Below are positions 2,318 to 29,911 of a stretch of 32,396 nucleotides of DNA, in pieces. Within the stretch, counting starts at the first letter, position 1. Every line of letters begins with the position of its first letter. Below the pieces are notes generated by a model. The model saw nothing but the letters and a program-made list of their open reading frames with translations, made no database searches and was not told where the DNA came from. The stretch comes from an uncultured archaeon (lineage in GTDB: Archaea > EX4484-52 > LFW-46): the NCBI GenBank assembly GCA_902384675.1, contig CABMCT010000014.1:1-32396 (forward strand), read 5' to 3'. A program made the position numbers and the translations under genes.

Positions 2318-2416
2318 TATTCAATTGCGCACTTTTTTAATATGATATTTGCAATTGAATAGATTGCGAATTTAAGCACACATAAGATATTTATCAAACC
2401 TCCTTAAATTCGCAAT
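2318..2416 (-). repeat. Double-hairpin element, copy A
   Basis: Two adjacent perfect inverted repeats: an 11-bp stem 2318-2328/2351-2361 and a 14-bp stem 2363-2376/2403-2416 with a 26-nt loop. The loop itself holds a small GATA..TATC mini-hairpin. Copy B (5993-6095) has the same layout with compensating base changes in both stems. The stop codon of the upstream HAD gene (2394-2396) falls inside the second loop. The minus-strand 3' edge supplies the TATA-like sequence of the downstream YvcK-like gene. Confidence 0.75.
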
Positions 2417-3110
2417 ATATCACTTTCGCTAATGCAGACCCAAGTTCGGAAAGCGATTTTATCGTAAAATCTGCTGCTTTATCGGTATTATTCTCTGAAA
2501 TAAGAACCGTTTTTATTCCGAGCTTTTTTGCAGGTGTGATGTCGCGCTCAATAGAATCGCCTGCAACAACCGCCTCTTGCGGCGGAATTTTCAGTTTATC
2601 CAGCGCGATTTTAAAGTAATTTTCGCTTGGCTTCAGTTCCCCCGCGGTTTCGCAGCTTACAATGAATTTGAAGTATTTCCTCCACTTCCCGAAAACACGA
2701 TTCAGTTTCATTTCAAGGAACGGCTCGCATTCATCGCTTGCAATTGCAAGAGTGTACTTTTTTTGAAGCGCAGCAATAGTTTTTTTGGCGTCTTTTTCAT
2801 ATTCCAAGTCAGTAAGAACCTGTTTTCTGAAAATATCCAGCGCGTTTTTTATGGCTTTTTCTGATATGCCTTTTCCAACGCCGAACTGCGAAATAACTAT
2901 CCTGAGGCTGTATTCGCGGCTTCTTTTTTCTGTGCTTTGCGCGTCTTTGGAGTTAAGGATTTCTTTGACGCAATTCTTCCACGCGCGCTCAAAAGCCTCT
3001 CTATTGATTCCTGTTTCTTTAGAAATATAATCAAACATCTTCGCATACGCGTTCTTGGTCACGACCTTGTAAAGCGTGTGGTCTGCATCGAAGATAATGG
3101 CTTTGAGCAT
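2394..3110 (-). CDS. HAD-superfamily hydrolase
   Basis: The 238-aa protein shows all four HAD motifs: I, IIFDADHTLY with the nucleophile and acid/base aspartates D8 and D10; II, LAIASDE; III, the lysine in GELKPSENYF; IV, VVAGDSIERDITPAKKLGI (G-D-x4-D). The helical cap between motifs I and II is about 90 residues, like the phosphoglycolate phosphatase/YjjG-type group. Substrate is not evident. A TATA-like CTATTAAAAC on the minus strand (about 3131-3140) lies about 25 nt before the start codon, consistent with a leaderless mRNA. The last codons, including the stop, are written by hairpin element A, so the C-terminus may have been altered by insertion of that element. Confidence 0.88.
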   Translation of the reverse strand: MLKAIIFDADHTLYKVVTKNAYAKMFDYISKETGINREAFERAWKNCVKEILNSKDAQSTEKRSREYSLRIVISQFGVGKGISEKAIKNALDIFRKQVLTDLEYEKDAKKTIAALQKKYTLAIASDECEPFLEMKLNRVFGKWRKYFKFIVSCETAGELKPSENYFKIALDKLKIPPQEAVVAGDSIERDITPAKKLGIKTVLISENNTDKAADFTIKSLSELGSALAKVIYCEFKEV

Positions 3111-3159
3111 AGTATATTTTGGGTTTTGGGTTTTAATAGCCTTTAAAGATTACAGATAC

Positions 3160-3570
3160 TCAGCCGCTAATGCGGTATTTTATTCTAATTGGGCTTTCGC
3201 CGACTTCGCATTTCCTACCTATTTTTTTGAATTTGTCCTGAAGAAGCGCCCTGTAGCCGATCACCAGAAAATCCTCTTCGCAAATCTGTTCATAATCGTA
3301 ACTATCGCATAAAGAAATACTCCGATTAAAATCCTGAGAACTTTTAGAGCTTATTTTTATCACATTAGTGTGCATTAACTCTCCAAATCTGCTTCTGCCA
3401 TGGTATTTATCTTTTTCAATTTCGGTTATGCCGCTTAAATATACCGGAGTTTTATAAGATGTCCATGGCTCTTTTTCAATATAAATTACATCTTTTCCAT
3501 TTTCCTTTGCATCCAAAAGCTCTTGTTCAATTTCGTCAATTTGGCTTCCTTCAAACTTTATAATTTTCAT
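3160..3570 (-). CDS. hypothetical protein, 136 aa
   Basis: Unrecognised soluble protein. I chose ATG 3570 rather than an upstream in-frame start at 3609 because a Shine-Dalgarno GGTGAT (3575-3580) sits 4 nt before it and the upstream extension is hydrophobic and unconvincing. The N-terminal 40 residues (IEQELLDAKENGKDVIYIE) predict helix-strand. Three Cys residues occur in the C-terminal half (near SLCDSYDYEQICEED and RKCEVGE), without a clear metal motif. It lies between the HAD gene and the divergent Lrp gene. No function is inferred. Confidence 0.6.
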   Translation of the reverse strand: MKIIKFEGSQIDEIEQELLDAKENGKDVIYIEKEPWTSYKTPVYLSGITEIEKDKYHGRSRFGELMHTNVIKISSKSSQDFNRSISLCDSYDYEQICEEDFLVIGYRALLQDKFKKIGRKCEVGESPIRIKYRISG

Positions 3571-3666
3571 TTTTATCACCACATAATAGATACTACTTAT
3601 CAGTTGCATTTATTATAGACTGACATATATTTACCTTTTTCCTCATTTTTGCCTTAAAAAAAGAAC

Positions 3667-3677
3667 AAATATATAAA
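3667..3677 (+). promoter_or_regulatory. TATA box of the Lrp-family gene
   Basis: The sequence AAATATATAAA is centred about 27 nt upstream of ATG 3700. That is the archaeal TATA-to-start spacing, so transcription should begin at or next to the start codon (leaderless). Confidence 0.6.
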
Positions 3678-3699
3678 TTCCATTTAATAAAATTAGTTT

Positions 3700-4194
3700 A
3701 TGTTATTCGATAGCTTCAATAAACCTAAAAAAATAAGCCAAATAGACGCGCTTGACAGGAAAATCCTGAATCTTCTTTCCGATAACAGCAGGCGCAAACT
3801 TATCGATATTGCGCGCGAACTCGGCCTTTCCATACCCTCGACAAAGGCAAGAATCGGCCGCCTGGTGGACGAGAAGATAATCACCAGATTCACAATCCAT
3901 GCAGATACCGAAAAAACAGGAATGCCGATAGGCGTCCATGTCCGGGTAAAGCTGAATAAAATCACAGAGGCGCGGCAGAACGAGTTTATCGCCCACCTTA
4001 AGAAAAACAAAAACGTAATTGATATTTTCTCCATTATCGGCCAATACGACCTCCTGCTTGTGGTTATTGCAGAAAGCTCAACAGAAATAAACAAAATACT
4101 CTTTAAAATACGCCATGATTTTACTGATATAATTTCTGACTGGGAAACGAATTACATAATGGAAATATACAAGCTGGAAGAATATAGTTATTAG
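3700..4194 (+). CDS. Lrp/AsnC family transcriptional regulator
   Basis: The 164-aa protein opens with ISQIDALDRKILNLLSDNSR and a helix-turn-helix around residues 30-62 (DIARELGLSIPSTKARIGRL), the N-terminal DNA-binding domain of Lrp/AsnC. The following region has the beta-alpha-beta-beta-alpha-beta layout of the RAM effector-binding domain (VHVRVKLNK ... VIDIFSIIGQYDLLLVVIAES, matching the family's V-x2-x4-G-x-YD-L-L). Such proteins form octamers or dimers and control amino-acid or energy metabolism genes in archaea. The target is not evident. It is transcribed alone and convergent with the thermosome gene, from which it is separated by a hairpin terminator. Confidence 0.9.
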   Translation: MLFDSFNKPKKISQIDALDRKILNLLSDNSRRKLIDIARELGLSIPSTKARIGRLVDEKIITRFTIHADTEKTGMPIGVHVRVKLNKITEARQNEFIAHLKKNKNVIDIFSIIGQYDLLLVVIAESSTEINKILFKIRHDFTDIISDWETNYIMEIYKLEEYSY

Positions 4195-4212
4195 AAATTA
4201 GAAAAACAAAAA

Positions 4213-4233
4213 CCTCCGGCTCTTCACCGGAGG
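4213..4233 (-). terminator. Intrinsic-type terminator of the thermosome gene
   Basis: A 7-bp GC-rich stem CCTCCGG/CCGGAGG with a 7-nt loop is followed on the minus strand by TTTTTGTTTTT. It lies 14 nt beyond the thermosome stop codon. A bacterial-style hairpin plus U-tract is less usual in archaea, where T-runs alone suffice. It may also end Lrp transcription on the other strand, although there the downstream sequence is not T-rich. Confidence 0.6.
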
Positions 4234-4246
4234 CCTAAATCGTTCT

Positions 4247-5896
4247 CTAGTATTCCCCGCCCATGCCACCCATACCGGGCATTCCTTCAGGCATTCCGCC
4301 GCCCTTTGACAGCTTTGAGGCCGAGATGACATCGTCTATTCGCAATATCATTTCTGCAGCCTCTGATGCGGATTTTATCGCCTGCGTCTTGATTTTGAGC
4401 GGCTCTATGACATTGATGGCCTTCATGTCGCTGATTGTGTTTTTCATCACATCAACGCCTGCAGTTATTATGCCTTTCTCATGCCTTGCGCGCAATTCGA
4501 CCAGAATGTCAATCGGGTCCAGTCCCGCGTTTTCTGCAAGCGTTCGCGGTATCACTTCAAGCGCATTTGCGAATGCATTGACCGCCAATTGCTCCCTGCC
4601 GCCGACCTGGTCAGCGTATCTTCGAAGCTCTTTTGCAACCTCTGCTTCAGGAGCCCCGCCGCCTGCGACCATGAATCCGACTTCAAGGCCTGCTGCAACG
4701 CATTTTACTGCATCGTCCATTGCGCGATAAATTTCCTCGACCACGTGCTCGGTTCCTCCGCGCACAAGTATTGAAACTGCTTTTGGTTCCTTGCATTCCC
4801 GCACAAACGTCATTGCCTCCCCGCCGACTTTTGTTTCCTCAACAAGGCCTGCGTATCCTAAATCTGATTTCTCGAGGTCGTCAAGGCTTGTTACGATTCT
4901 TGCGCCGGTTGCTCTTGCAAGCGCGTCAATGTCTGATTTTTTCACTCGCCTTGCTGCGAAGATTCCCTTCTTTGAAAGGAAGTGCTGTGCCATGTCGTCA
5001 ATGCCTTTCTGGCAGAACAGGACATTTGCGCCTGATGCAGCGATTTTCTCGACCATTGTTTTGAGCATTTTTTCCTCTGATTCGACGAACGCCTGTAATT
5101 GCGAAGGGTCTGTAATCCTTATCTGCGCGTCTGTTTCTGTTTCCTTGATTTCAAGGGCAGCATCGATAAGCGCGATTTTTGCGTCCTTGACCCTTGAAGC
5201 CATTCCGGAGTGCACGCGCTCTTTGTCGACAATAATTCCCTTGATAAGCTCTGTCTCATCAGTGCTGCCTCCTGCTTTCTTTTCCATTTTCAGGTTGTCA
5301 AGGTTGATGATGACTTTGTTTCCGTTTTTTTCCGCAATTGCGACAACGCCGTCAACAGCGATTTTCGCCAGGTGCTCGCCTGCTGATTCCGCGCTTTTTC
5401 CTGTCATTGAAGTTATAGCGAGGTTTTTAAGAACTTCCTTGTCGTTTAACGTAAGAGGCATTGCGATTTTCTTGAGTATTTCAAGCGACTTGTTTTTTGC
5501 AAGCTTGTATCCTGCCGCGATTATTGTCGGGTGGACGTTCTGGTCAAGAAGTGCTTCGGATTCCTTGAGAAGCGCGCCTGCCAAAATTACTGCAGTTGTT
5601 GTCCCGTCGCCGACTTCCTTGTTCTGGGTTTTTGCGACCTCGACCACCATTTTCGCTGCGGGATGCTCGATTTCCATTTCTTCGAGGATTGTGACGCCGT
5701 CGTTTGTTATTACAACGTCGCCGATTGAGTCTGTCAGCATCTTGTCCATGCCTTTGGGCCCCAGAGTCGAGCGGACAGCATCTGCCACTGCGCGCGCTGC
5801 TGCTATGTTCTGTCTCTGCGCAGTGCGCCTGTTGTCCTTAAACGCCCCCTCGGGCAGTATGAAAATCGGTTGTCCTTGACCTGTTTGATTTGCCAT
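4247..5896 (-). CDS. Thermosome subunit (group II chaperonin)
   Basis: The 549-aa protein is full length for the family. It has the group II signatures [10 protein letters not shown] (residues 45-54), the nucleotide-binding GDGTTT (96-101), [11 protein letters not shown], and [12 protein letters not shown] in the C-terminal equatorial domain, and it ends in a Gly/Met-rich tail ([12 protein letters not shown]) that points into the folding chamber. It assembles into a double eight- or nine-membered ring that folds cytosolic proteins using ATP, with a built-in lid in place of GroES. Only one subunit gene is present here. Shine-Dalgarno AAAGGTG (5903-5909) is 6 nt before the start. A TATA-like TTTTTTAAAG near 5970 implies a leader of a few tens of nt. 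The terminator follows at once. Confidence 0.97.
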
Positions 5897-10090: not shown

Positions 10091-10621
10091 ATGCGACGGC
10101 TTACTTTTTTTCCGACAGAGAAGAACTCCCTCCATTACTGGACGCATTTTAAGAATCCGCTTGTTGTTACGCGGAATTTTATTGTCATAGAGTTCTGCAA
10201 GTATGTCCCGTCGATGGCGGTTCGGCGCGCTTTTCTTCGCCTTATCGGCATTAAAATCGGCAGGGATACGTCGGGTGCGCTCGGTGTGCAGCTTGACATA
10301 TTCTTCCCGGAAAAAATAGAAATCGGGGACAACACAATAATAGGGTATCATTCGACAATTCTATGCCATGAGTTTCTTGTACCTGGTTTGCGGACAGGGC
10401 ATGTGAAAATCGGGAATAATGTTCTTGTCGGCGCAAATTCAACAATCCTGGCAGGGGTGGCGGTTGGAGACAGCGCAACAATTTCTGCAATGAGCCTTGT
10501 AAATAAAGACGTAAAAGCAGGAGATTTTGTAGGCGGGGTGCCTGCGAGGAGGCTTCGCGACAAAAAGCTACAATCCGCGAAGCCAAGCGAGGAGAAAAAA
10601 TTGAAGAGAAATTCTAAATAA
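10091..10621 (+). CDS. Hexapeptide-repeat (left-handed beta-helix) acyltransferase
   Basis: The 176-aa protein has imperfect [LIV]-G-x4 hexapeptides: KIEIGDNTIIGYHSTI, then HVKIGNNVLVGANSTILAGV and AVGDSATISAMSLV, ending VGGVPARRLRD. The last segment (G-x-PAR) is the usual end of NodL/LacA/WbbJ-type O-acetyltransferases. These trimeric enzymes transfer acetyl from acetyl-CoA to sugars or related acceptors. The expected catalytic His is probably in the TILCHEF stretch. The N-terminal 60 residues are an amphipathic or membrane-associated extension. The lysine-rich C-terminus overlaps the 3' end of the convergent UvrA-like gene by 8 nt. Acceptor unknown; neighbours elsewhere (UppS, nucleotidyltransferase) suggest surface glycans. 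Confidence 0.85.
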   Translation: MRRLTFFPTEKNSLHYWTHFKNPLVVTRNFIVIEFCKYVPSMAVRRAFLRLIGIKIGRDTSGALGVQLDIFFPEKIEIGDNTIIGYHSTILCHEFLVPGLRTGHVKIGNNVLVGANSTILAGVAVGDSATISAMSLVNKDVKAGDFVGGVPARRLRDKKLQSAKPSEEKKLKRNSK

Positions 10622-12884
10622 CGGCTCTTTTGCAGTAACTTGTACTGAGATATTGCCCTGTATACGATCTTTTTACTTTTGCCACTTCTTCAGGCGTACC
10701 TTCAGCGATGATTTCGCCTCCTTTATCGCCGCCTTCAGGTCCTAAATCAATTATATAATCCGCGCTTCTTATAACATCCAAATTATGCTCGATAACAAGA
10801 ACAGAATTTCCATTATCAACCAGATTATGTAAAATAGTAAGTAACCGCTCTATATCTGCAAAATGCAAGCCTGATGTCGGTTCGTCCAATACATAGAATC
10901 CTCCTTTTTTATGTAGCTTACTGGCCAGTTTCAGCCTTTGCGACTCGCCGCCAGATAATGTATCAAGCGTTTGCCCAAGGCTCAAATAACCAAGCCCGAC
11001 ATCAATAAGCATTTTTAACTTTGTTCTTAAGTCTGCATGTTCAAAAAAGTTTAATGCTTCTTCTGCAGTCATTTCTAAAATCTCAGAAATGTTCTTTCCT
11101 TTATACAGGTAACTCAATGTCTTTTTAGTATATTTCTTTCCATCGCAAGTTTCGCAAATGGTTTTTACCGGTGCCATGAAATGCATATCAATTTTATTGT
11201 AGCCCAGGCCATCACAGTCAGGGCATGCTCCTTCGCTGTTCGAACTGAATAAGGACTTGCTTACTTTATTTTCTTTGGCAATAATCTCCCTAATTATATC
11301 GAGAGCGCCTGAGTATGTGGCAATGTTTCCGCGCGGGGAAGAACCGATTTGAGCCTGGTCAACAAACACAAGTTTGTCATTATATTTTTTTACAAAAACT
11401 TCATTCACAAGGGTACTTTTCCCAGATCCTGATACGCCGGTTACTGCAGTGAAAACGCCAATCGGGATTTTAACCGAGATATTCTTTAAATTATGAATGG
11501 TCGCATTATTTATCTGGAAGAATCCTTTCGGTTGCCTGCGGGCGGTTCTTGCGTGGATTTTGAGTTTGCCGCTTAAATATTTTCCAGTCAAGGATTCCTT
11601 ACGTTCCATTATCTGTTGTGGTGTTCCGGCAGCAATAATCTGTCCGCCAAACCTGCCGGCACCCGGACCTATCTCTATTATATAATCGGATTTAAGCATT
11701 ACATGCGCGTCATGTTCAGTAACAATCACTGTGTTTTGTCCATCCCTGAGTTTTTTCAATATGTTGATTAAATTATTTGTGTCACGAGGGTGCAGCCCGG
11801 CAGTAGGCTCATCAAGGATATAAATAATCTCGATTAAATCGCTGCCAAGTTCTCTTGCAAGCTTTATTCTCTGGGCTTCACCGCCTGAAAGAGTATCAAC
11901 AGAACGATTCAAAGAAATATAGCCGACACCAACATCGATTAGGGCTTTAAGCAATTGAGACATCCTGGCGGCAATTGGCTTGGCTATCGGATTATCTAAT
12001 TTATTTAATTCTTTTACCAGCTCATCTATGGGCAAATTAGCAAAATCGCCAATCGTTTTGCCATTTATTTTCACGGACAAAGCTTGCTCATTTAGCCTTG
12101 TGCCGCCACAGGCAGCACATGGTTTAGTAACCCAAAATAAAGCCTCATTCTTATGCTTTGCTTTTGATATGCCACGTAAATCTTTTGCACGATTTATCAG
12201 TTGATTTACTATGCCCGTCCAACTGTATGATTGTACGAAACCCTGTGCGCTATTTTTCAATTTTATTTGCGGCGAATATAGCAAGAAATCAAGTTCCTCT
12301 CCTAAAAAGTCCTTTATGGGTTTATCAAAATCAATTCGGCCGGTTGTTTTTAAGATGTTCATATACCTGCTGCCGGGCTTATAAAGCGTGTGCTTAATCG
12401 CGCCTTGATTTAAAGTCTTTTGGAAATCCGCTAGCGAGTTTGGATCTATCGTGACCTCTATGCCCATTCCTTTACATGCTTTGCAGGCTCCAAGCGGATT
12501 GTTGAACGAAAAATGTGCCGCACTAAGTTTGTCTGAGCCGATTCTGGAAAACAATAATCGAAGATAAGTATACAGCTCGGTTGTAGTGCCAACAGTAGAC
12601 CTTTGGTTGCCGGATAGCTGCCTTTGCTCAATCATTATAGTTGAAGAAAGCCCTTTAATCTCGTCAATATTAGGTTCCTCTGTTCTCTGGAGTAATCGTG
12701 CTGCATATGTGTTTAAAGAGTCCAAATACTGCCTTTGCCCTTCTGCATAGATAATATCGGAAGCAATTGTCGATTTGCCGGAGCCTGAAACTCCGACCAA
12801 GCAGGTTATTTTATTTCTTGGAATTTCAACATTTATGTTCTTGAGATTATGTTCCTTTGCGCCGGTGATTTTGATTACATTCAT
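10614..12884 (-). CDS. UvrA-like ABC ATPase, short form
   Basis: The 756-aa protein has two UvrA-type ABC modules. Each has Walker A GVSGSGKST (31-39 and again near 480), an LSGGE-QR signature (332-339 and near 660) and a Walker B ending in LDEPT-GLH. Zinc-module cysteines are visible: C134-x2-C137 and C256-x2-C259 in the first half, CPDC and CETC in the second. Canonical UvrA is about 940 aa; the missing length falls after the first ATPase core, where the UvrB-binding domain should be. It therefore resembles the short UvrA-like paralogues (UvrA2/DrrC type) associated with DNA-binding drug tolerance rather than excision with UvrB. No uvrB or uvrC is in the window. The TATA-like ATTTAAAA upstream of ATG 12884 suggests leaderless expression. 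Confidence 0.93.
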   Translation of the reverse strand: MNVIKITGAKEHNLKNINVEIPRNKITCLVGVSGSGKSTIASDIIYAEGQRQYLDSLNTYAARLLQRTEEPNIDEIKGLSSTIMIEQRQLSGNQRSTVGTTTELYTYLRLLFSRIGSDKLSAAHFSFNNPLGACKACKGMGIEVTIDPNSLADFQKTLNQGAIKHTLYKPGSRYMNILKTTGRIDFDKPIKDFLGEELDFLLYSPQIKLKNSAQGFVQSYSWTGIVNQLINRAKDLRGISKAKHKNEALFWVTKPCAACGGTRLNEQALSVKINGKTIGDFANLPIDELVKELNKLDNPIAKPIAARMSQLLKALIDVGVGYISLNRSVDTLSGGEAQRIKLARELGSDLIEIIYILDEPTAGLHPRDTNNLINILKKLRDGQNTVIVTEHDAHVMLKSDYIIEIGPGAGRFGGQIIAAGTPQQIMERKESLTGKYLSGKLKIHARTARRQPKGFFQINNATIHNLKNISVKIPIGVFTAVTGVSGSGKSTLVNEVFVKKYNDKLVFVDQAQIGSSPRGNIATYSGALDIIREIIAKENKVSKSLFSSNSEGACPDCDGLGYNKIDMHFMAPVKTICETCDGKKYTKKTLSYLYKGKNISEILEMTAEEALNFFEHADLRTKLKMLIDVGLGYLSLGQTLDTLSGGESQRLKLASKLHKKGGFYVLDEPTSGLHFADIERLLTILHNLVDNGNSVLVIEHNLDVIRSADYIIDLGPEGGDKGGEIIAEGTPEEVAKVKRSYTGQYLSTSYCKRAVI

Positions 12885-19260: not shown

Positions 19261-19755
19261 TCATCTCAAACTCTCCAAAATACTTTCTTCTTGATATGTT
19301 AAACCAAGCATATTTCTAACAAAATGTTTTCCTTCATATGACAAAGAAGAGTAATTACTATTTTTAATAAGAGTCTCTTTTAGATATTCTAATTGTTTTA
19401 TTTTGTCAAAATCTATATTTTCTGCCACTTTTCGTGCAGCATTTGCCTCATTTTTTGAGGTATCATCTTCTTCGATTATTATTTCGATGCATCTTATTGA
19501 ATTGCAATTTATTTTTGTTAATTTCCAATCTAAAATTGTATTTAATTTATTCCTAGATTTCAATGCAAACTTAAAATGTGGGCCTTCCAGAGCATCCGTA
19601 TAGTGAAGAAAATAATAGTCATCATTTCCAGCCATCTTTTTTAATTCGGATAAGGTTAAAGATTTTACGTCAATAACTTCTCTAAAGAAATATACGGGAT
19701 TATTTATTTTTGGAAATACTTTAATTATTATCCACACATCTCTACGTATGTTCAT
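19261..19755 (-). CDS. hypothetical protein of the defence operon, 164 aa
   Basis: I do not recognise this protein. Its first half is beta-rich (DVWIIIKVFPKI; YYFLHYTDALEGPHFKFAL; RCIEIIIEED), and the second half is helical (DFDKIKQLEYLKETLI). It ends EESILESLR, echoing the ends of the two preceding genes in the operon. The ATG at 19755 overlaps the stop of the Shedu-like gene as ATGA, directly after a GAGGAGAG ribosome-binding sequence carried by the junction repeat. A small partner or regulator of one of the nucleases is possible; this is inference from position. Confidence 0.55.
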   Translation of the reverse strand: MNIRRDVWIIIKVFPKINNPVYFFREVIDVKSLTLSELKKMAGNDDYYFLHYTDALEGPHFKFALKSRNKLNTILDWKLTKINCNSIRCIEIIIEEDDTSKNEANAARKVAENIDFDKIKQLEYLKETLIKNSNYSSLSYEGKHFVRNMLGLTYQEESILESLR

Positions 19756-19792
19756 TTCAAACTCTCCTCAATAACCCTCTTTTCCTCCTTAG
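19750..19792 (-). repeat. Operon junction repeat, copy 2
   Basis: It carries the end of the Shedu-like gene and the start of the 164-aa gene. It shares an uninterrupted GGTTATTGAGGAGAGTTTGA with copy 1 and has three substitutions in the 5' half (AAGGAGGAAAAGAGG versus GAGGAGGAAAAAAAG). Confidence 0.7.
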
Positions 19793-20957
19793 TTTCGCCT
19801 TCTATATTTTCCAATTTTCCAGATTTTATGAACTCTAATCTTGCCTGTGCTCGCTCATAGAGGTCCTCAAATGTTATTAACTCAATATTATGGAGAAAAT
19901 AATTCATATCCCTCATTTTTCGCTCCAAATCCGCATTTTTATCTTCCCATATCTCTTCTCTTTTGCGCCCAATTATGACAATAGCCTTTGCCCGCATGCT
20001 TTTTTTATTTTCTTCACATAAATAACCTATCGCCTGCGAAATTCCTTGATGGACTTTCGTTGCCAACACTTCTTGGGTAGAGTATATTCTGCTTGTGCGA
20101 TCATTTGGATCTTTAAACTCCACTATCAGAAGGTCATGCGAATCCATTTTTCGAAGCCGGACATCATTTTTTCCATAAATGCCTTCGTTATAGCTCAAAT
20201 ATTCCCAACCAAGAATCCAAAAATTTGGAAAATCTCCTTTTTTACCACTCTCTAAAAGCCATTTTCTAATTGTTTGTTCATTTTCATCCTTCGAAAATAT
20301 CTTAGTTTTGAACTCTTCAAGAGTCTTACTGTATTTTTCTACATTTTCTGCGATTGCTTTTGCTACATTCCCTAACAAGATCGGCACTGGAGTTGCATCT
20401 CCTTTGTTGACGCTGTATCCTTTATTCTGAAGATATTCAATAGTTTTTAGTTCATTTTTCCCCATAATATGTTCGTAATTTTTTCTTACCATTACATCGA
20501 ATAAAGCTTTTTCCTCATCAGACTTTAATCTGAAGAAAAAGAAATTTATTGTGTCTTTATTACTCCATTTTGTAAAAAACTCGTTAAAACGATTGATATT
20601 TATTAGAAGTATCTTAGGGTTATTAGTGGCTCGAAAACTCCAAGAATCGTCTAAATCCTTTGAAAAAACAATGACTGAATCACTAAACTCTTTATCATTT
20701 TTTATAAATTCTGCAAGATATTTTTCGCCCAATACAATGTTTTTATTCTTGTCTTTTTCAAAGTCTGCATCAAAGAACACATATCCGAAGGTATTTATCT
20801 TCGTCCATATCGGCTTCTTACTTATAATTTGTCCAATGTTTTGTGCCTGCTCTTCTAAAGTTTTTTTGGGGTGATATTTACCTCTCTTATTTTGATTGAT
20901 CCATTCAAGTTTAGCAGTATCTAATTTTTCAAATGAATAAAAGAGTTCATCGTTCAT
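19752..20957 (-). CDS. Shedu (SduA/DUF4263)-like nuclease
   Basis: The 401-aa protein has a C-terminal domain resembling Shedu SduA/DUF4263, a PD-(D/E)XK nuclease of single-gene phage and plasmid defence. Visible are D275-LLIVE280-F-K282 followed by the Q-containing helix HQGISQAIGYL (Q308), then AKAIVIIGRKREE and a final NIELITFEDLYERAQARL (family I-x-I-x-TYDEL-x-x-RA). The N-terminal 180 residues are not recognised. The last 14 residues (ETKEEKRVIEESLK) copy the end of the upstream type IIG protein. It overlaps that gene by 11 nt. The operon link of a Shedu-like nuclease to a restriction-methylase is unusual, because Shedu is usually described as standing alone. Confidence 0.75.
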   Translation of the reverse strand: MNDELFYSFEKLDTAKLEWINQNKRGKYHPKKTLEEQAQNIGQIISKKPIWTKINTFGYVFFDADFEKDKNKNIVLGEKYLAEFIKNDKEFSDSVIVFSKDLDDSWSFRATNNPKILLININRFNEFFTKWSNKDTINFFFFRLKSDEEKALFDVMVRKNYEHIMGKNELKTIEYLQNKGYSVNKGDATPVPILLGNVAKAIAENVEKYSKTLEEFKTKIFSKDENEQTIRKWLLESGKKGDFPNFWILGWEYLSYNEGIYGKNDVRLRKMDSHDLLIVEFKDPNDRTSRIYSTQEVLATKVHQGISQAIGYLCEENKKSMRAKAIVIIGRKREEIWEDKNADLERKMRDMNYFLHNIELITFEDLYERAQARLEFIKSGKLENIEGETKEEKRVIEESLK

Positions 20958-23766
20958 TCAAACTCTCCTCAATAACCTTTTTTTCCTCCTCAGTAATCCC
21001 GTACAACTTATACACCAATTCATCAATCTCCATATCCGTCTTCTTAATTTCATCCTCGATTCGTGCGCGCTCGTCTGTCTTTTTGTCGCCGAGGTCAGAT
21101 AGGCGGGAGTTGAAGGAGAGCAGTTTATCGACTAATTGAACGATTGATTGCTGTTCTGCTTTCAAAAGATTCTTTATTGGAAGTTGCCGGAGGTGTGCAG
21201 GCTTTACTTCGTATTCATTGAATTTTTTCTGAAAGTAGAAATCCATTAATGTAGAATTTAGAATTCCTAGACAATACCTTAAAGAATACGTTTTGTCTGT
21301 AATCACAATATTTGAAAGTCTGTTAAGATTGTAAAACTTCTTCATATCTAATGCGCAGATGAGCTTTCTTTTCATACCTCTTCTTGTTCTTTGTACAAGT
21401 ATTTTATCCTCTTCAAATATTTTTTTATCAGGTAATGTTCGTCCTTTGTCGCCATAACTATCTACGACAGCTTTATCATACAATACCCACTCACCAGGCC
21501 ATTTTAATGAGTATCGCGATATATCTCTTCCGCTTAATAGTTTATGATATCGTTCGTCTATTTTTTCATGAGAAACTAGGGCACTTTTTATATATCCTGT
21601 ATTTATTCCGACAGTCACATACGCTATTTTTTCGAGAGGAGTTGAATCCATTTCTATTTTATTCGCTATTTGGCTTATGTCGGGGCTTAAGTTAATATTG
21701 AACATATTGTCTCTTGAATCTACGAACGAATCTTGACAAATCTGATATTTTTCTGAAGGTTGTGATAATGGAACACTTCTTGAACGGCAAATTGAGACCT
21801 TTAGTTTATTTGTGTCTCTTTCTTTCGTCATATTTTTTTGTAATATTAGTATTGTACTTTCTATTGTTACATCTTCAAAAACATTCAATCCTAAATCAAC
21901 AATTTCTTTTATACAGCAATAGTTGAGAATATATTTTCTAAGCTTTTGATACGATTTTGCGGTTAAAAACGTATTTGGGATAATGAATCCGAGATCGCCT
22001 GTTTTGTTTAAGATACTGATTGAGCGTTCAATGAAAAAACGATACATATCAAAATTTCCCTCGGATGTCTCGTATTTCTTGCTATATGCCTCTTTAATTT
22101 CTTCTGTGGGTATTTCTCGATAGCCATACGGCGGATTTCCAATCACAACATTAAATCCTCCGCGCGCCATAATGTCCTTAAATCGTTCATCCCATTTGAA
22201 AGCTAAATCTCCCGCGACCTTTTCATCATCTATTAAGGAATTTCCGACTAAAATATTATTATTCAACATGGGTAATATCTTTTTTGTATTTTTCAGCTTC
22301 GAAATTGTTTCCGCTGTTTCTCCTTCCATGATCTTCAAAAACAAGTTAAGTTGCGCGATTTCAACTGCTTTCTTATCCAAATCCACGCCATGAATGCATG
22401 AAAGTAGAATCGTTGTCTTTTGTGGTAATGTCAGCCGTTTATCATAGGTTTTCAAAGCCACGCTTTTTGTAGCTTTCTCGCCTTTTTTCATTTTCGCCTC
22501 TACTGTTTTGCAAACCTCAAAAAATGCCCTAATTAAAAAGGAACCAGAGCCGCATGCAGGATCCAGAATCTTTGTTTCAAGAATTTCATCAATTGATTTA
22601 TTCTTTATATGCTCGCCAACGCTGTTTTTCACTATATAATCCACGATGTAAGTTGGAGTGTAATAAATTCCCTGCTCTTTTTTATGTGCCCGACCGCCTT
22701 CCAGCTTCGTCTTTTTCTGGTTTTCTTTTACTTTCAGTATGTATGAAAGATATTCTTCGTAAATATTTCCTAAAACATCTCCGCTAATGGCTGCGAAGTT
22801 GTACTCAACTTTTCTGCCTGTTGGTGTATACATTCCCTGAATAACGGATTTTATCACATTATCCTGAATATCAATGTTATCGCACGCTTGTTCTTTGCCT
22901 TCTTCTCCGAACAGGCCGCTGTTGTATTTCTCCATATAATATTCAAATACTTTTTTCAGTTGCCTGTAGGTAACATAGTCGTCGCCTTCGTTGATTTTCC
23001 TTGCTACTTGGTCGAGTTTTCTTTCCTCAATCTCCAAGTCTTCCATTTTTCTGATGAAGATTAATCTATCTATGATTCTTTGTACAACCTCTTCAATTTC
23101 GTAATCCTGATAGTTCTGGTATTTCCTGCGTATTTCATTTGATAGTTTTCCGCGCCATTCTTTCAAATCGATAAACAGCTGCTTGAAAACCTTCTCTTTT
23201 TCCGGCTTTATTCCCATGCCTTTTATGCGCTCTTCAAGAAGGTTGTTTTTGGCAGCCTCTTTTGATAGAAGCCAAAGCTGCTCGAAATTCTCGTTGAATT
23301 TGCTTAAATCTGAGATATCCTCGATGCGGATAATAGATGTATCGTCGTTCTTATCGACAAAATAAACTCTTGTCTGAATAAAGTTGGTCAATACGGCCCA
23401 CGAACATGCAAGGTTGTATGAATACCCGACTGCCTGTTCTCTGAATTCGTCAGAATTAATATTAACCTTCACCGCCTTTGCTTCCACGACAAACTTTGGC
23501 ACGCCATAAAGCCGGAATACATAGTCGGATTTCTTCTTTTTTGATGCTTCGTTGCTGATGCTTTCCTCCATGGTTACTTCGTCAGCGCTTTCCCTGCCCC
23601 TTAAATCCCAGCTAAGAATAATAAATAATTCATCAATTAGTTTTTGCCTTATGTTTTGCTCGGAGCTTTTTTCATAAATATCTTTGTTTCTATTGTAGAA
23701 TTCGATAAGTTTCTTTAATTCTGCTTTAGCCTCCTCCTTCGTAATCATGCGCCCGTCATCAGCCAT
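20947..23766 (-). CDS. Type IIG restriction endonuclease-methyltransferase (Eco57I-like)
   Basis: The 939-aa single-chain enzyme has an N-terminal PD-(D/E)XK nuclease (D81 ... FVVEAK with E95 and K97), a helical linker, and a gamma-class N6-adenine methylase with motif I DPACGSGSF (402-410) and motif IV NPPY (544-547). Its C-terminal target-recognition domain includes LLSGRDISRY and HLRQLPIKN. The ending IDELVYKLYGITEEE is the usual coiled end of this family. It cuts and methylates at one specificity set by the TRD, so it needs no separate HsdS or HsdM. The start may be Met1 (23766) or Met7 (23748). It heads the operon; the final 13 codons contain the junction repeat shared with the next genes. 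Confidence 0.92.
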   Translation of the reverse strand: MADDGRMITKEEAKAELKKLIEFYNRNKDIYEKSSEQNIRQKLIDELFIILSWDLRGRESADEVTMEESISNEASKKKKSDYVFRLYGVPKFVVEAKAVKVNINSDEFREQAVGYSYNLACSWAVLTNFIQTRVYFVDKNDDTSIIRIEDISDLSKFNENFEQLWLLSKEAAKNNLLEERIKGMGIKPEKEKVFKQLFIDLKEWRGKLSNEIRRKYQNYQDYEIEEVVQRIIDRLIFIRKMEDLEIEERKLDQVARKINEGDDYVTYRQLKKVFEYYMEKYNSGLFGEEGKEQACDNIDIQDNVIKSVIQGMYTPTGRKVEYNFAAISGDVLGNIYEEYLSYILKVKENQKKTKLEGGRAHKKEQGIYYTPTYIVDYIVKNSVGEHIKNKSIDEILETKILDPACGSGSFLIRAFFEVCKTVEAKMKKGEKATKSVALKTYDKRLTLPQKTTILLSCIHGVDLDKKAVEIAQLNLFLKIMEGETAETISKLKNTKKILPMLNNNILVGNSLIDDEKVAGDLAFKWDERFKDIMARGGFNVVIGNPPYGYREIPTEEIKEAYSKKYETSEGNFDMYRFFIERSISILNKTGDLGFIIPNTFLTAKSYQKLRKYILNYCCIKEIVDLGLNVFEDVTIESTILILQKNMTKERDTNKLKVSICRSRSVPLSQPSEKYQICQDSFVDSRDNMFNINLSPDISQIANKIEMDSTPLEKIAYVTVGINTGYIKSALVSHEKIDERYHKLLSGRDISRYSLKWPGEWVLYDKAVVDSYGDKGRTLPDKKIFEEDKILVQRTRRGMKRKLICALDMKKFYNLNRLSNIVITDKTYSLRYCLGILNSTLMDFYFQKKFNEYEVKPAHLRQLPIKNLLKAEQQSIVQLVDKLLSFNSRLSDLGDKKTDERARIEDEIKKTDMEIDELVYKLYGITEEEKKVIEESLNER
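20955..20995 (-). repeat. Operon junction repeat, copy 1
   Basis: On the minus strand this is a block of about 40 nt with GGAGGAAAA, GGTTATTGAGGAGAGTTTGA and ATGAAC, holding the end of the type IIG gene plus the RBS and ATG of the Shedu-like gene. Copy 2 at about 19750-19792 matches at all but a few positions. A third, partial copy (GGAGAGTTTGA-ATGAA) is at about 19260-19275. Confidence 0.7.
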
Positions 23767-23831
23767 ACTACATATTTCCGCCTCTCTTCTTCTTAAATCT
23801 TTGTTTTTCGCGTTGCCGATAAGCGATATGT

Positions 23832-24677
23832 TTAGTTTTGCTTGAGCTTCTTGGACTTATTTAATAGCTTTTTGTCGTCAGCCTTTACTCTGCGCTCTAA
23901 TTTCTTGACATCTTCTTCAGGAGGCAGACTTTCCGGTTTGATTCCGCTTTTTGCCAGCAACTTTCGAACGTCGCGGTTGTTTTTGACATGCTCGCCGGTA
24001 ATCGGAAATTCGCCATATAAATCGTCTTTTTTGACGTTGAAATTCGTGATTTCTGTTGCCAAGTCCTTTGCCTTTATGGTTATTGTAGGCAGAAAATCCG
24101 CAAGAGGGCGGCTTTCCGGAATGTCAAGCTTACTTTTCATTTGCAGCGTTGTATTGCCACCAAACAATGCTCGGTCTCCTTTGCTTCGTATTCTTGCAAA
24201 TCCGTCGCTGTCAACACCGCGCTCATAAATTATTTTTGAGAGTTCTGTTTCGGTTGCCACAAGCTTTTCCCTTGCTTGCAACCGTTCCGCAAGCTCTATT
24301 CTTTTTTCTAGAATTTCCTGCTTGCGCGTCTGGATTGCAAAATAGCTTTGCGCGAATGCAATTTGCTCCTTTCTTGAATCGCCATTCTGTGCGATAAGAT
24401 AGCAGGCATATCTTGTGAGCATAATGTCGTCTATTTCTCTTTTAGCTTCCGAGCCGAGATCGACCATTTTGTTGACGTCAACAAAATGGTCTGAAATATT
24501 TTGTCCTGAGTTCTTGCACGCAATTTTTGCCTTTTCAATAACCTGCACGAAGTTTCTCCACTCTGAATAATCCAATAGCCTCTGCAAATCTCGCGCCATC
24601 CAGTATTCGATCTTATTTTGCTCATGGGCAGATTCCTCAAAGTTTTTTAGCAATCGTGCGATAACCTCTTGTTTCAT
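23832..24677 (-). CDS. dinD: DinD-like DNA-damage-inducible protein
   Basis: Starting at ATG 24677 the protein has 281 aa; the open frame extends upstream to 24779, but that extension is unlikely and covers the promoter. The sequence follows E. coli Din[21 protein letters not shown] (Bro-N/ORF6N-like), [52 protein letters not shown], then TIYERG-type and [14 protein letters not shown] later. In E. coli DinD inhibits RecA filaments after DNA damage. In archaea it is sporadic and probably horizontally acquired. A minus-strand TATA TTTATAAATA (24697-24706) sits about 25 nt from the ATG, giving leaderless expression. It is directly upstream of the type IIG operon, same strand, with a 65-nt gap. 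Confidence 0.9.
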
Positions 24678-24739
24678 AGGATTAATTTCAAGCCGAGTAT
24701 TTATAAACAAAACCCGTAGAGGTTGCCGATAGAATGGGT

Positions 24740-25459: not shown

Positions 25460-27796
25460 TCACACGCTCTTTAGAACCTTCGCAACTCTTTCCTTTCCAA
25501 CCGCAATTATAAACCCGGCAAGCTTCGGCCCTCTTTCCTTTCCGATAATCGCTAAATAGCACGCCTTGTAGAAGTCCTGCGGCGAAACCTTTGTCTCGGC
25601 GATTATGCGCTTGAATTCTTCTGATAGTTCTGTTTCATTTAACTTCTTTTCCAAAACCGAAGCAAGCATTTTCAATGCAGATATTTGCGCAGGCGATAAT
25701 TTCGCTTTAATTTCAGGCGAAACTTTTTCAGCAACCTTTATCTTGACTTCCTCTGGTGCATACTTTTCAATCCAGTTTCTTGCCAGGTTCAGCCTTTGCA
25801 CTATCTCGTTATGAACCTCTTTGTTATAATGGCCTGTTGATTTCAGGCTTTCAATAATATCTGCATCTGTCCTGAAAACCTGCACAAGTTCTGCAGCATA
25901 AGAAAATCTTACCGGAATCGGCTTCTGTATTCCCTTGAGCTGCGACATCTCATAAAGCCTTTTTGCATGCGCTTCTTCCTTCTCATTCCCGGCCTTTTTC
26001 AGCCCGAAATAAATCTGTGCGTGCTCGTCATAATCGTCGTACAAAACAGGCAGTTCCTTCCATGAAAAGCTGCGCGTCTTCATCAGTTTTTTATTATAAA
26101 GGAATCTGAGCAACTGCGGCGTTCCTGCCAGTAACCAATCCCTGGGATAAATCACATTGCCTAAAGACGCGGACATTTTCACTCCATCAATCATCAGATG
26201 CTCATAAAATATCGGCACAGGCATAGGGTATTTCATCACTTTCTCTGCAATCTCGGCATTTATCCAGAACGCGCTGTTCTTTGATTCGTACTCCTTTCCT
26301 GCGCCCTCGGAGCATACATTCCAGCGCACCCATTGCGTTGCCCACTCGCTTTTCCACATCAGCTTGCCGTTTCCTTTCATCGGGTCGTTTACGCCTTCGT
26401 ATCCGCAGCCTTTGGCCGTATATTTCTCAAAGGCGTAATCCTGGCACTTGTAATAAATCTTGCCGTCCTTAAACCCCGTAATCTTGGGCGTGATTATTTT
26501 GCCGCAGTTCTCGCATATCGGCGTCCACGGGCTCCATCCGTCTGCGAGCGGCTTTTCCCTGAACTTATTCTGTATCTCGATTACTTCTTTTGCATGCTCA
26601 AGAATTTGCTTGATGTACGGCTTAAAGTTTCCCTTCTTGTACTCTGCCCTCATCGAGAATTTTTCCAGCTTTTCATTGACAAACTGGTCTATGACTTCGA
26701 AATACTCTGCAACATGATGGTCTGCATAAGATTTGTGGCAGCCGTGCGGGTCAGGAATATCAGTGACCGGGGTCCCGATATAATCGACATAATTCTTCGG
26801 CACGCCTTCAGGCACTTTTCTTAGCGGGTCCATGTCCTCTGCAACCCAGATTATCCGCGCCTTTACGCCCGCATCTTTTAGCGCGCGATAAACTGATTCT
26901 CCTCTAATAGTATCAGACAATCTTCCGATATGCAGAACTCCAGAAAGAGATGCAGATGTCTTGACAACATATTCTTTCGGCGGATTAATGGCATCATCCG
27001 TAAAGTGGAATTTCTTTCTTGTAATTATCTGTTGTGCAATCTGGTCTGCCCAGAATAGCGACTTCTCGCCTTCAGCATCTTTTTTAATCTTCGCAGATTC
27101 TTTTTTTACAGGCTCTGTTTTCTGCACTACTTCAACCTTTGCATTGTCCGCAAGCATCGTCTCGATTTTCTCTTTTCCTGTGCCTGCCTTTTTGCCTTTT
27201 TCAATAATAATTCTGCCAATCTCCTTCGTATTCTTTACAGAAGTCCCGCCGCAGGGCAATTCAATGTCGCCGCATTTCCAATAGCGATAATCCGGATTTT
27301 TTGCATCAGCCCATGTTTTAACATCAACATTCTTTGCGATAAAATCATTCGTTTTTTTCTCGACCAGCTTCAGCTTTTCCATATTCAGCGGCTCTTTGAA
27401 ATTATACGTCGAGCGGTCTTTCTTGTCGTCAACGAGCGCGGCAGGCAATGCAGTGCACCAGTCGCCGAAAACCTCTTTCATAAAATACATGACGATGTGA
27501 GAAACCGAATGAAGCTTCATTGTTTTATATCGCCTCTCCCAGTCGATTTTGCCTTTTACTTTATCTCCTGCTTTGAATGCCGGCTTCTCAAGAACATGAA
27601 TAATTTTTTTCTTGTCTTCGCTTTTAATAGTATCTATTACGCGAACCCCGTTCAGTTCGCCTGTATCCCCAACCTGCCCGCCTCCCTGAGGGAAAAAGCA
27701 CGTCTGGTCAAGAACAACGTTACTTCCGCTAATTTCAACAACCTTTGCCTCAAACTCGGCCTGGTATGGATTCTGGTAAAAGAGCTTTGCCGTCAT
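25460..27796 (-). CDS. AlaX-type editing domain fused to class I lysyl-tRNA synthetase
   Basis: The protein has 778 aa from ATG 27796, which lies about 25 nt from a minus-strand TATA (TTTAAATAA, 27817-27825); the ORF upstream only offers a TTG. Residues 1-210 are an AlaRS/AlaX editing domain: TCFFPQGGGQVGDTG (32-46), H96-x3-H100, and C182-GGT-S186 where the family has CGGTH, so one zinc ligand is missing. A charged linker (205-245) joins a class I LysRS: SGVLHIGR (285-292, HIGH motif), Cys ribbon C428/C431/C451/C464, KMSAS (540-544), then the helical anticodon-binding domain. It would charge tRNA-Lys, and the N-domain might clear mis-charged aminoacyl-tRNA in cis or trans. Class I LysRS alone is about 530 aa, the length of the second half. 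Confidence 0.9.
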   Translation of the reverse strand: MTAKLFYQNPYQAEFEAKVVEISGSNVVLDQTCFFPQGGGQVGDTGELNGVRVIDTIKSEDKKKIIHVLEKPAFKAGDKVKGKIDWERRYKTMKLHSVSHIVMYFMKEVFGDWCTALPAALVDDKKDRSTYNFKEPLNMEKLKLVEKKTNDFIAKNVDVKTWADAKNPDYRYWKCGDIELPCGGTSVKNTKEIGRIIIEKGKKAGTGKEKIETMLADNAKVEVVQKTEPVKKESAKIKKDAEGEKSLFWADQIAQQIITRKKFHFTDDAINPPKEYVVKTSASLSGVLHIGRLSDTIRGESVYRALKDAGVKARIIWVAEDMDPLRKVPEGVPKNYVDYIGTPVTDIPDPHGCHKSYADHHVAEYFEVIDQFVNEKLEKFSMRAEYKKGNFKPYIKQILEHAKEVIEIQNKFREKPLADGWSPWTPICENCGKIITPKITGFKDGKIYYKCQDYAFEKYTAKGCGYEGVNDPMKGNGKLMWKSEWATQWVRWNVCSEGAGKEYESKNSAFWINAEIAEKVMKYPMPVPIFYEHLMIDGVKMSASLGNVIYPRDWLLAGTPQLLRFLYNKKLMKTRSFSWKELPVLYDDYDEHAQIYFGLKKAGNEKEEAHAKRLYEMSQLKGIQKPIPVRFSYAAELVQVFRTDADIIESLKSTGHYNKEVHNEIVQRLNLARNWIEKYAPEEVKIKVAEKVSPEIKAKLSPAQISALKMLASVLEKKLNETELSEEFKRIIAETKVSPQDFYKACYLAIIGKERGPKLAGFIIAVGKERVAKVLKSV

Positions 27797-27870: not shown

Positions 27871-28743
27871 TTAGTAGTAATACCCGCCGTTGCCGCTATA
27901 TGAATAACCGCCGCCTCCTGTTGTTCCCCCACCGGTTTGTCCGGTAGCATTCCCAGAGACATTACCCGTAACATTTCCAACGCTTATCAAAAGCGCTGCC
28001 CGTGTCACATTGGATGCCGGCCAATAGGAGGTTATGTTGCATGCTCCATTGACAGTAAGCCTCATTATCGTAGAGTTTCCCGTTGCTACCCCGTCAGCTT
28101 CCTGCCCGCATCCCCGAAAATCAAGCGCCCTATAATAGACATTTGCAGGGCGCACATTAAATGTCAGGGTTATCATATCGCTTATATTCGCCGGTATTGA
28201 TGACACAGACACATTGTTCATGTAGAACCCATTGTCATCTGCATCTATTGCGAACGATTTTTGCCCTGTAGTGATATTTGTCACATTTGAGGCTACGTTT
28301 ATTGTTCTTTCATTGGTCCAGTAATTGCTGCCATCCACTATTACATGCGCCCTATAGTAAAGGGTGCCTGCCTGTGTGGGAGTTATGTTTGCAGTAAATG
28401 TATTCGGTATATAGAATGTTCCGCTTGCAAAGTCAGGAGTCAGATATGCATATCCTCCAGGCGGCCCGACATCCTCTCCAAGTGTTCCGGGATGCGGAAC
28501 ATAATCGTAATGGATTGCCGTATGGGAGATTGTCTTGCCTGGTCCTCCTACACTCCATGTTATTGCAAACGGCATTCCGGCAGTTGAGTTTGCCGGCGCA
28601 GAAACTATGCTTATGGTAACGTTTTCCTGTGTCTGGTTCGTAGGAGTGACATTGCCTGTCCGGTTGGCTGGCGGGTATTGAACGCATCCGCTTGCAAAGA
28701 CTATGCCGACCAGCAATATAAGGACATAGTAAATTTTTCTCAT
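27871..28743 (-). CDS. secreted lipoprotein with N-glycosylation sequons
   Basis: The 290-aa protein begins MRKIYYVLILLVGIVFASGC, a signal peptide ending in a lipobox (A-S-G-C), so it is likely lipid-anchored outside the membrane. The mature part is Thr/Asn-rich with many N-x-S/T sequons, and two beta-rich regions: one with FAITWSVGGPGK and HTAIHYDYV, another with MITLTFNVRPANVYYRALDF. It finishes with a Gly/Tyr-rich tail (GGGGYSYSGNGGYYY). The second region may be a cupredoxin-like or Ig-like fold, but copper ligands are not clear. Start ATG 28743 is supported by GAGGTG (28750-28755), 6 nt upstream. It is divergent from the site-2 protease. Confidence 0.8.
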   Translation of the reverse strand: MRKIYYVLILLVGIVFASGCVQYPPANRTGNVTPTNQTQENVTISIVSAPANSTAGMPFAITWSVGGPGKTISHTAIHYDYVPHPGTLGEDVGPPGGYAYLTPDFASGTFYIPNTFTANITPTQAGTLYYRAHVIVDGSNYWTNERTINVASNVTNITTGQKSFAIDADDNGFYMNNVSVSSIPANISDMITLTFNVRPANVYYRALDFRGCGQEADGVATGNSTIMRLTVNGACNITSYWPASNVTRAALLISVGNVTGNVSGNATGQTGGGTTGGGGYSYSGNGGYYY

Positions 28744-28841
28744 ACTAAACACCTCTCGGGGATAATTCAGGAGGGTGCCTTTTAAAGGATTTGGTGCAAA
28801 ACCGGATTGGTAAGGCGTACGTCGAATCCTCTTTCTTTATA

Positions 28842-28873: not shown

Positions 28874-29911
28874 ATGTTCGCAATTCCCGGGCTCTCTGCC
28901 AACTGGACATCTCTAATCATTCTTCTTATCATAATTGGCGCAGTATGGCTCATTGACCGGAAGAATTTCAAGCGCGAAGGCATAGTGTTTTTAAGAAGAA
29001 CAGAAAAGGGCCTTGATTTCATCAACAGGTTTGCAAAAAAGCACCAGAAATCTTTGAGGATTTTCGGGACACTGGGCATAATCCTCTCATTCGGCGCGCT
29101 TGGCGCAGGCTATGTTTTCAGAACAGAGAAAAAGAAGCATGCTGCAGCTAAAACTGTTATAGTCCTTATAATCCTGCTTGCTGCCTCGCTTTCAATTTTC
29201 AAGGCAGCATACGCAATTCCGGGAGCGCTTTTTGGCGCATCGGGCTTTGTTCTCTCGCAATTCGTGGCAGGGATTGTAAGCCTGTTTACTGTTCCGAATG
29301 TCACCCCAAGCGTGCAGTTCGTTCTTCCTGTGCAGGCGCCAGGCGTGTTCTATGTCCCGATTGATTTCTGGCTCATATCGATTTTCGTGCTTCTTGTAGT
29401 GCACGAATTCTCGCATGCGTTTGTTTCCCGCGCAGAAGGCATTAGGGTTAAATCCCTTGGCTACGGCTTTATGGCAGTAATTCCTATCGGGTTTGCCGAG
29501 CCCGACGAGCGCGAGCTTAAGAAAACTTTGTCGATAAAGAAGTCGCGCATTTTTGCAGCCGGCTCTTTTAGCAATATTATTACTGCAATAATTTCCGTCA
29601 TTCTTCTTACAGGAATCGCCTTTTTAACATCCGCCATTTACACAACCGCCGGCGTAACATACAGTACGGCCATTACAGGAACTCCCGCAGATATCTCGTT
29701 GCCGCACAACGGAACAATTATTGAGGTGAACAGCAAAGAAGTAAAGAACGCCAACGAGCTTGCAGACGTAATGAGCGGGGTTTACCCTGGCAGCGAAATA
29801 TCCCTTGTTGTTAACGGGCAGCGTTATGTAATAAAAACGACAGAAGATCCCAAGAACGCATCGCGCGCATTTATCGGGATTTCGGGAATAGAGAACGTTA
29901 TAGTGCAATAA
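28874..29911 (+). CDS. Site-2 protease (M50), N-terminal part, ended by an in-frame TAA
   Basis: The 345-aa membrane protein has several TM helices, the zinc-binding HEFSH (177-181) in a membrane segment, FMAVIPIGFAEPDE, and a PDZ-like domain (about 270-340; ITGTPADISLPHNGTIIEVN). The third metal ligand of M50 proteases, the Asp in an (N)-PxPxLDG motif, is missing because the frame stops with TAA at 29909-29911. The same frame continues downstream and supplies it (next entry). Intact relatives cleave membrane-anchored regulators or remnant signal peptides. The stop may be a real nonsense mutation, a sequencing artefact, or the gene may be read as two chains. Confidence 0.82.
   Translation: MFAIPGLSANWTSLIILLIIIGAVWLIDRKNFKREGIVFLRRTEKGLDFINRFAKKHQKSLRIFGTLGIILSFGALGAGYVFRTEKKKHAAAKTVIVLIILLAASLSIFKAAYAIPGALFGASGFVLSQFVAGIVSLFTVPNVTPSVQFVLPVQAPGVFYVPIDFWLISIFVLLVVHEFSHAFVSRAEGIRVKSLGYGFMAVIPIGFAEPDERELKKTLSIKKSRIFAAGSFSNIITAIISVILLTGIAFLTSAIYTTAGVTYSTAITGTPADISLPHNGTIIEVNSKEVKNANELADVMSGVYPGSEISLVVNGQRYVIKTTEDPKNASRAFIGISGIENVIVQ

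Follow-up and report, generated by a model that had tools for sequence, protein, structure and literature searches.

In the window, a stretch of 32,396 nucleotides from an uncultured archaeon, one gene joins an AlaX editing domain to a complete class I lysyl-tRNA synthetase (LysRS), and among the genomes compared at least four to five lineages couple AlaX with LysRS, in one order or the other, as neighbours, as overlapping genes or as a fusion. Since the pairing recurs, a LysRS-linked role of the AlaX domain is well supported, and the pairing points to a function in the proofreading of lysine tRNA or in tRNA handling that was not described before. Our preferred reading, to which we assign a probability of roughly 0.45, is that the domain performs post-transfer editing of tRNA-Lys in cis and would deacylate via a three-ligand zinc site. 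To our knowledge, LysRS has long been held to be without a dedicated post-transfer editing domain, and lysine coding was thought to be accurate without one. A search of mainly the open literature, which is no proof of absence, found neither an AlaX-LysRS nor an AlaX-PheRS fusion. The fusion gene and its parts are as follows.

25460..27796, minus strand: AlaX-LysRS fusion gene, 778 amino acids, ATG start at 27796; a single open frame with Pfam, NCBIfam and PDB matches on both halves
27146..27796, minus strand: AlaX-M-type editing domain, residues 1-217 (2e1b, E=5e-40; AF2 model; 70% identity to the domain of G025)
27674..27685, minus strand: GGGQ motif, residues 38-41, present here as in 85-90% of 48 relatives
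27497..27511, minus strand: HSVSH, residues 96-100, with the predicted zinc ligands H96 and H100; invariant across all aligned AlaX/AlaRS domains
27239..27253, minus strand: CGGTS, residues 182-186, with C182 kept and the fourth ligand changed from His to Ser186 (His in 98% of 48 relatives; Ala in G025)
27056..27145, minus strand: linker, residues ~218-247, Lys/Glu-rich and without ATG
25796..27055, minus strand: LysRS catalytic part, residues 248-667, of a foreign type (Woesearchaeota/Aenigmatarchaeota/Hydrothermarchaeota)
26921..26932, minus strand: HIGR, the class I HIGH motif, residues 289-292
26165..26179, minus strand: KMSAS, the KMSKS motif, residues 540-544
25463..25795, minus strand: LysRS C-terminal (anticodon-binding) part, residues 668-778, of the resident type

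As the sequence-only reading had proposed, the AlaX domain and the complete class I LysRS share one uninterrupted frame. Read from the window (25460-27796, minus strand), it comprises 778 codons and a stop without internal stops, and PDB and profile matches cover both halves. From the N- to the C-terminus it consists of the AlaX-M-type domain (1-217), the linker (~218-247) and the class I LysRS (248-778), and all five motifs named by that reading (GGGQ, HSVSH, CGGTS, HIGR and KMSAS) were located. In the codon listing, no ATG follows M214 before the LysRS domain begins, which makes separate translation of the LysRS half unlikely. The full-length AF2 model was built with LysRS rows only and was poor in the AlaX part; the AlaX domain was modelled apart. 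In the full-length model pLDDT stays below 50 over residues 177-244, and the linker is probably disordered.

Searched against PDB, residues 1-217 matched two AlaX-M chains, 9iuw (E=4e-38) being close behind 2e1b. Modelled alone, the AlaX part reached a mean pLDDT of 94; its best PDB folds were the AlaX-M structures 9iuw and 2e1b (TM 0.84-0.91), and among solved structures AlaX-M and AlaRS editing domains matched best, which identifies it as an AlaX fold. The NCBIfam model NF040865 (AlaXM) scored 146.5 bits, under its curated cut-off of 300. For conservation, we compared 48 AlaX/AlaRS domains, at least 80% of which agree at 42 positions. The N-terminal fusions of the window and of G025, a genome from another family of the same order, both keep 36 of these 42 positions, including T32, G39, G40, Q41, H96, H100 and C182. 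Thus, three of the four predicted zinc ligands (H96, H100 and C182) are present, and the pocket of T32 and GGGQ is intact. The CxxxH signature is incomplete, C182 being followed by Ser186 in the window and by Ala in G025; the loss of the fourth ligand noticed in the sequence-only reading thereby stands. Two further changes, G119A and D130T, are common to both N-terminal fusions and lie at sites that are otherwise 90-94% conserved in the 48 domains. Every LysRS-partner AlaX examined that is unfused or fused C-terminally retains the fourth His, and two Aenigmatarchaeota LysRS-partner AlaX have Asp in place of the Cys.

Between the fused AlaX domains of the window and G025, dN was 0.19 and dS about 1.6 or more, or saturated, which places the fused domain under purifying selection. 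The conservation of T32, GGQ41, H96, H100 and C182 likewise favours a working or re-specialised site rather than a dead one. For AlaX-M, a water molecule is reported as a further metal ligand (PMC3532385), which makes a three-ligand zinc site in the fused domain plausible by analogy. The idea that C175 (RxWxC) serves as a new fourth ligand was weakened, as C175 also occurs in relatives retaining the His, and W173/C175 was rejected as a LysRS-specific mark, being common to free and PheRS-fused AlaX. The window's genome (G000) encodes a second AlaX-like protein (L096, G000:C32:6500-11500; 2330-2983, minus strand), also found in its congener G001 (L099); lacking GGGQ and having Phe at the fourth ligand position, this protein of the genus is a degenerate AlaX.

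The other half of the protein has the marks of a complete synthetase. Residues 248-775 matched the class I LysRS 1irx in the PDB search (E=1e-69), TIGR00467 (lysS_arch) scored 348 bits against a cut-off of 147.55, and the LysRS part of the full-length model is confident and matches 1irx. The residues that are invariant among 79 LysRS are retained: S285, G286, H289 and G291 around HIGR, and S544 in KMSAS, where K540, M541 and S542 are nearly invariant. The conserved cysteines C428, C431, C451 and C464 are present as well. In the assembly of G000, which is 89% complete, we found neither a second class I LysRS nor a class II LysRS match over the cut-off. The fusion protein is therefore probably the sole LysRS of this organism, and the enzyme is probably essential. 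Before the HIGH motif (window 26880-26970), the window's enzyme has TSASLSG in place of the SGITPSG run, as does a widespread LysRS type in the LysRS alignment; this could reflect a change in the lysine pocket.

The LysRS half proved to be a mosaic. Residues 248-667 share a mean identity of 62% with the Woesearchaeota/Aenigmatarchaeota/Hydrothermarchaeota type and of 33% with the LysRS of G001 (tree support 96/93), whereas the last 111 residues, 668-778, are 78% identical to the G001 LysRS and 35% to the foreign type (75% DNA identity with G001; tree support 100/100). The change point was placed at residue 667, and none of 2000 permutations matched it. G001, of the same genus, has a LysRS without AlaX at the corresponding locus, and two genes upstream of the fusion mark this synteny:

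27871..28752, minus strand: lipoprotein-like gene, 40% identity to the gene adjoining the G001 LysRS
28874..29911, plus strand: M50/S2P-family membrane protease (Pfam Peptidase_M50), 64% identity in G001

The simplest reading of these sequences would be that recombination brought AlaX and a foreign catalytic part into the resident gene, whose anticodon-binding tail was retained. A viral carrier was not found in one scan of viral contigs.

A search of related archaea for this domain order, as proposed in the sequence-only reading, returned the same fusion in G025 and the reverse order, in one frame, in G414, so that the two are not separate genes in every relative. The G025 AlaX is in frame with a LysRS that is 35% identical to that of the window and shares 93% identity with the LysRS of G031, which is unfused; the G025 contig stops inside the LysRS half. 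The DNA of G025 and G031 is 92% identical in the upstream flank and 88% identical from the LysRS start onward, and between these flanks lies AlaX in G025 and an unrelated isomerase-like gene in G031. Because none of the other genomes of G025's family (f7) in our sample that have a readable LysRS N-terminus carries a fusion, it is more likely that AlaX was grafted in place onto the resident LysRS of G025 than that it was lost in the relatives. This appears to be the same kind of event as in the window, with the joint in the linker.

Beyond these two N-terminal fusions, the pairing takes several forms. The LysRS-AlaX fusion of G414 (L214, G414:C11:15500-20500; 2494-5001, minus strand) keeps all four zinc ligands. 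AlaX and LysRS are separate neighbours in G422 and in G024, where 12 nt lie between the stop-to-stop frames. Two Parvarchaeota genomes have AlaX first and then LysRS (gaps of 5 and 17 nt), while one Parvarchaeota and two Aenigmatarchaeota genomes have LysRS first and then AlaX, overlapping or nearly so. In G436, LysRS, a B3/4 domain protein and AlaX form an operon-like run (L206, G436:C29; 1-3220, plus strand), in which the free B3/4 protein is a PheRS-type editing domain and an Orc1/Cdc6-like ATPase gene comes last; L207 and L214 likewise combine LysRS and AlaX with an Orc1-like gene downstream of the pair. In two analyses of the AlaX tree, well-supported branches forced at least four or at least five changes for the LysRS link. 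A LysRS partner was present at 3 of 22 AlaX loci that lie outside Thermococcales and had no part in building the profile. The chance probability of this is 1e-5, or 3e-4 under a looser rule, based on about 2 in 1000 per locus with the gene number per genome assumed.

LysRS is one of several synthetase partners. In four genomes, G005, G104, G414 and G415, archaeal PheRS-beta carries a fused AlaX at its C-terminus, and in G417 the two are adjacent:

L095 (G005:C7:4500-8843), L217 (G104:C4), L215 (G414:C16), L216 (G415:C18) and L209 (G417:C45): PheRS-beta/AlaX loci

These fusions represent at least two independent events, and the PheRS-beta retains its own B3/4 editing domain where scanned. In G434, AlaX lies directly upstream of TyrRS (L208, G434:C51; 199-2154, minus strand). 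An AlaX gene divergent from an ArgRS gene was seen in L182 (G208:C11). As G414 carries both a LysRS and a PheRS-beta fusion, one generic AlaX does not suffice there and neither copy stands in for the other, and this co-occurrence argues for AlaX acting on the tRNA held by its partner synthetase.

AlaX and AlaRS read the G3:U70 pair of tRNA-Ala, which is indeed present in the tRNA-Ala of G000. The tRNA-Lys(CUU) of this genome has G1:C72, G2:U71 and G3:C70. The possibility that tRNA-Lys gained G3:U70 and so became an AlaX substrate was rejected, as G3:C70 was read in the intact tRNA-Lys genes of G000, G001, G003, G014, G061 and G063, and G3:U70 is absent from the tRNA-Lys genes of G062 and G065. 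G2:U71 does not explain the fusion either, since it also occurs in G001, which lacks it. The tRNA-Lys(CUU) gene has an intron of 71 nt in G000 (L116, G000:C12:21513-21657) and of 69 nt in G001.

In the editing reading that we prefer, the protein would be a bifunctional class I LysRS whose C-terminal half charges tRNA-Lys, while the N-terminal AlaX-M-type domain, on its flexible linker, would act on the tRNA bound by the synthetase. Most likely its substrates would be mischarged tRNA-Lys species, from which it would hydrolyse small wrong amino acids, for example Ser, Ala, Gly, Cys or Thr, with a predicted zinc held by H96, H100, C182 and water. Zinc binding, deacylation, tRNA-Lys as the substrate and the amino acids removed are thus all predictions. 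AlaX-type pockets accept small amino acids (PMC3158927). The mischarging precedent cited for tRNA-Lys concerns class II LysRS; the fusion is a class I enzyme, which may mischarge by analogy. The presence of one AlaX subtype on two LysRS as different as those of the window and G025 supports the editing reading, and so do the in-place graft in G025 and the allele replacement at the native lysS locus of the window, the repeated independent coupling in both orders, the separate LysRS and PheRS-beta copies in G414, the 36 conserved positions together with purifying selection, and the probable essentiality of a sole LysRS. Given the water ligand of AlaX-M, a site with three protein ligands need not be fatal. 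On the other hand, the combined loss of the fourth His, G119A and D130T in both N-terminal fusions means that editing activity may be lost, and the acceptor stem of tRNA-Lys, with G3:C70 and G2:U71 rather than G3:U70, also counts against editing. The main rival explanation, which we consider rather unlikely, holds that the AlaX domain has lost editing and become a tRNA-binding appendix, which would raise the affinity for tRNA-Lys or its aminoacylation. It draws on the loss of the fourth ligand in both N-terminal fusions, on the lack of G3:U70 in tRNA-Lys and on Plasmodium falciparum cytosolic TrpRS (Pf-TrpRS), in which an AlaX-like domain in the same N-terminal position and with a linker is needed for tRNA binding (PMC3680381), a precedent that weighs against editing. 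However, the Pf-TrpRS domain lost all four ligands, whereas H96, H100, C182, T32 and GGQ41 are kept in both fusions, and the fourth His is kept by all LysRS partners that are unfused or C-terminally fused.

Alternatively, the domain might still edit Ser- or Gly-tRNA-Ala in trans and merely ride on LysRS, for instance in a synthetase complex. LysRS-LeuRS-ProRS complexes do exist in archaea, LysRS joining LeuRS and ProRS in Methanothermobacter (PMC4394549), and the partners of AlaX vary, as the PheRS-beta fusions and the TyrRS neighbour illustrate. Nevertheless, we consider such a tethered trans editor improbable: the AlaRS of G000 has its own intact editing site (HHCH), which makes a tethered tRNA-Ala editor less likely, G414 keeps two AlaX, one per synthetase, and the sites of the fused domains differ from the Ser/Gly-tRNA-Ala editor consensus. 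We reject the idea that errors in assembling or binning this metagenome-derived genome created the fusion. The assembly is fragmented (76 contigs) and the mosaic break at residue 667 could resemble a chimera, but synteny with G001 holds on either side of the imported segment, so that two misjoins would be needed, one of them in frame. Moreover, the same AlaX-LysRS joint lies between G031-like flanks in G025, and the reverse fusion is found in G414. Of the sequence-only interpretation, the fusion, its domain order and the lost fourth ligand have held up, and the pairing recurs; either of its two functional readings, a changed specificity or a tRNA-binding module, may apply.

We know of no class I LysRS that carries an editing domain. 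The closest likenesses of the two halves are free AlaX-M (P. horikoshii 2e1b and P. furiosus 9iuw) and the class I LysRS of P. horikoshii (1irx). With AlaX-M, the window's domain shares the fold, HxxxH, GGGQ, CGGT and a length of ~217 amino acids; in contrast to it, AlaX-M is free-standing, targets Ser/Gly-tRNA-Ala and has CxxxH intact, while the window's domain is fused to LysRS, has Ser for His, and carries G119A and D130T like its G025 counterpart. With 1irx, the enzyme shares the whole synthetase fold, the HIGH and KMSKS motifs and the four cysteines, but it differs in its N-terminal AlaX, in TSASLSG for SGITPSG and in its mosaic origin. AlaRS also couples an editing domain covalently to a synthetase, but it belongs to class II, its editing is directed at its own tRNA-Ala, and it possesses a C-Ala domain, which the window's protein lacks. 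Pf-TrpRS likewise has an N-terminal AlaX-like domain and a linker on a non-alanyl class I synthetase, and its domain was called a tRNA-binding part (PMC3680381); the synthetase is a different one, and the window's protein is of archaeal origin.

As a tentative wider claim, DPANN LysRS may have repeatedly gained an AlaX editing domain, in fusions or tight operons and in both orders. AlaX would then be a general plug-in proofreading module, also found on PheRS and beside TyrRS, and would pass from genome to genome through in-place replacement at synthetase loci, and the N-terminal LysRS fusions would represent a re-specialised three-ligand zinc site. The recurrent pairing implies that in some archaea either mischarging of tRNA-Lys is serious enough to select a proofreader or an editing domain was turned into a tRNA clamp. 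The mosaic genes show that editing domains can be grafted in place onto essential synthetases, and AlaRS itself may have come together in a similar way.

Downstream of the fusion, at 20947-24680 on the minus strand, the window contains a type IIG restriction-methyltransferase gene (939 amino acids) that adjoins a BRO-N protein gene (PADLOC candidate PDC-S13), and with this pair a gene for an unassigned protein of 401 amino acids (19752-20957). A UvrA-like ABC protein of 756 amino acids, shorter than the usual UvrA, is encoded at 10614-12884 on the minus strand.
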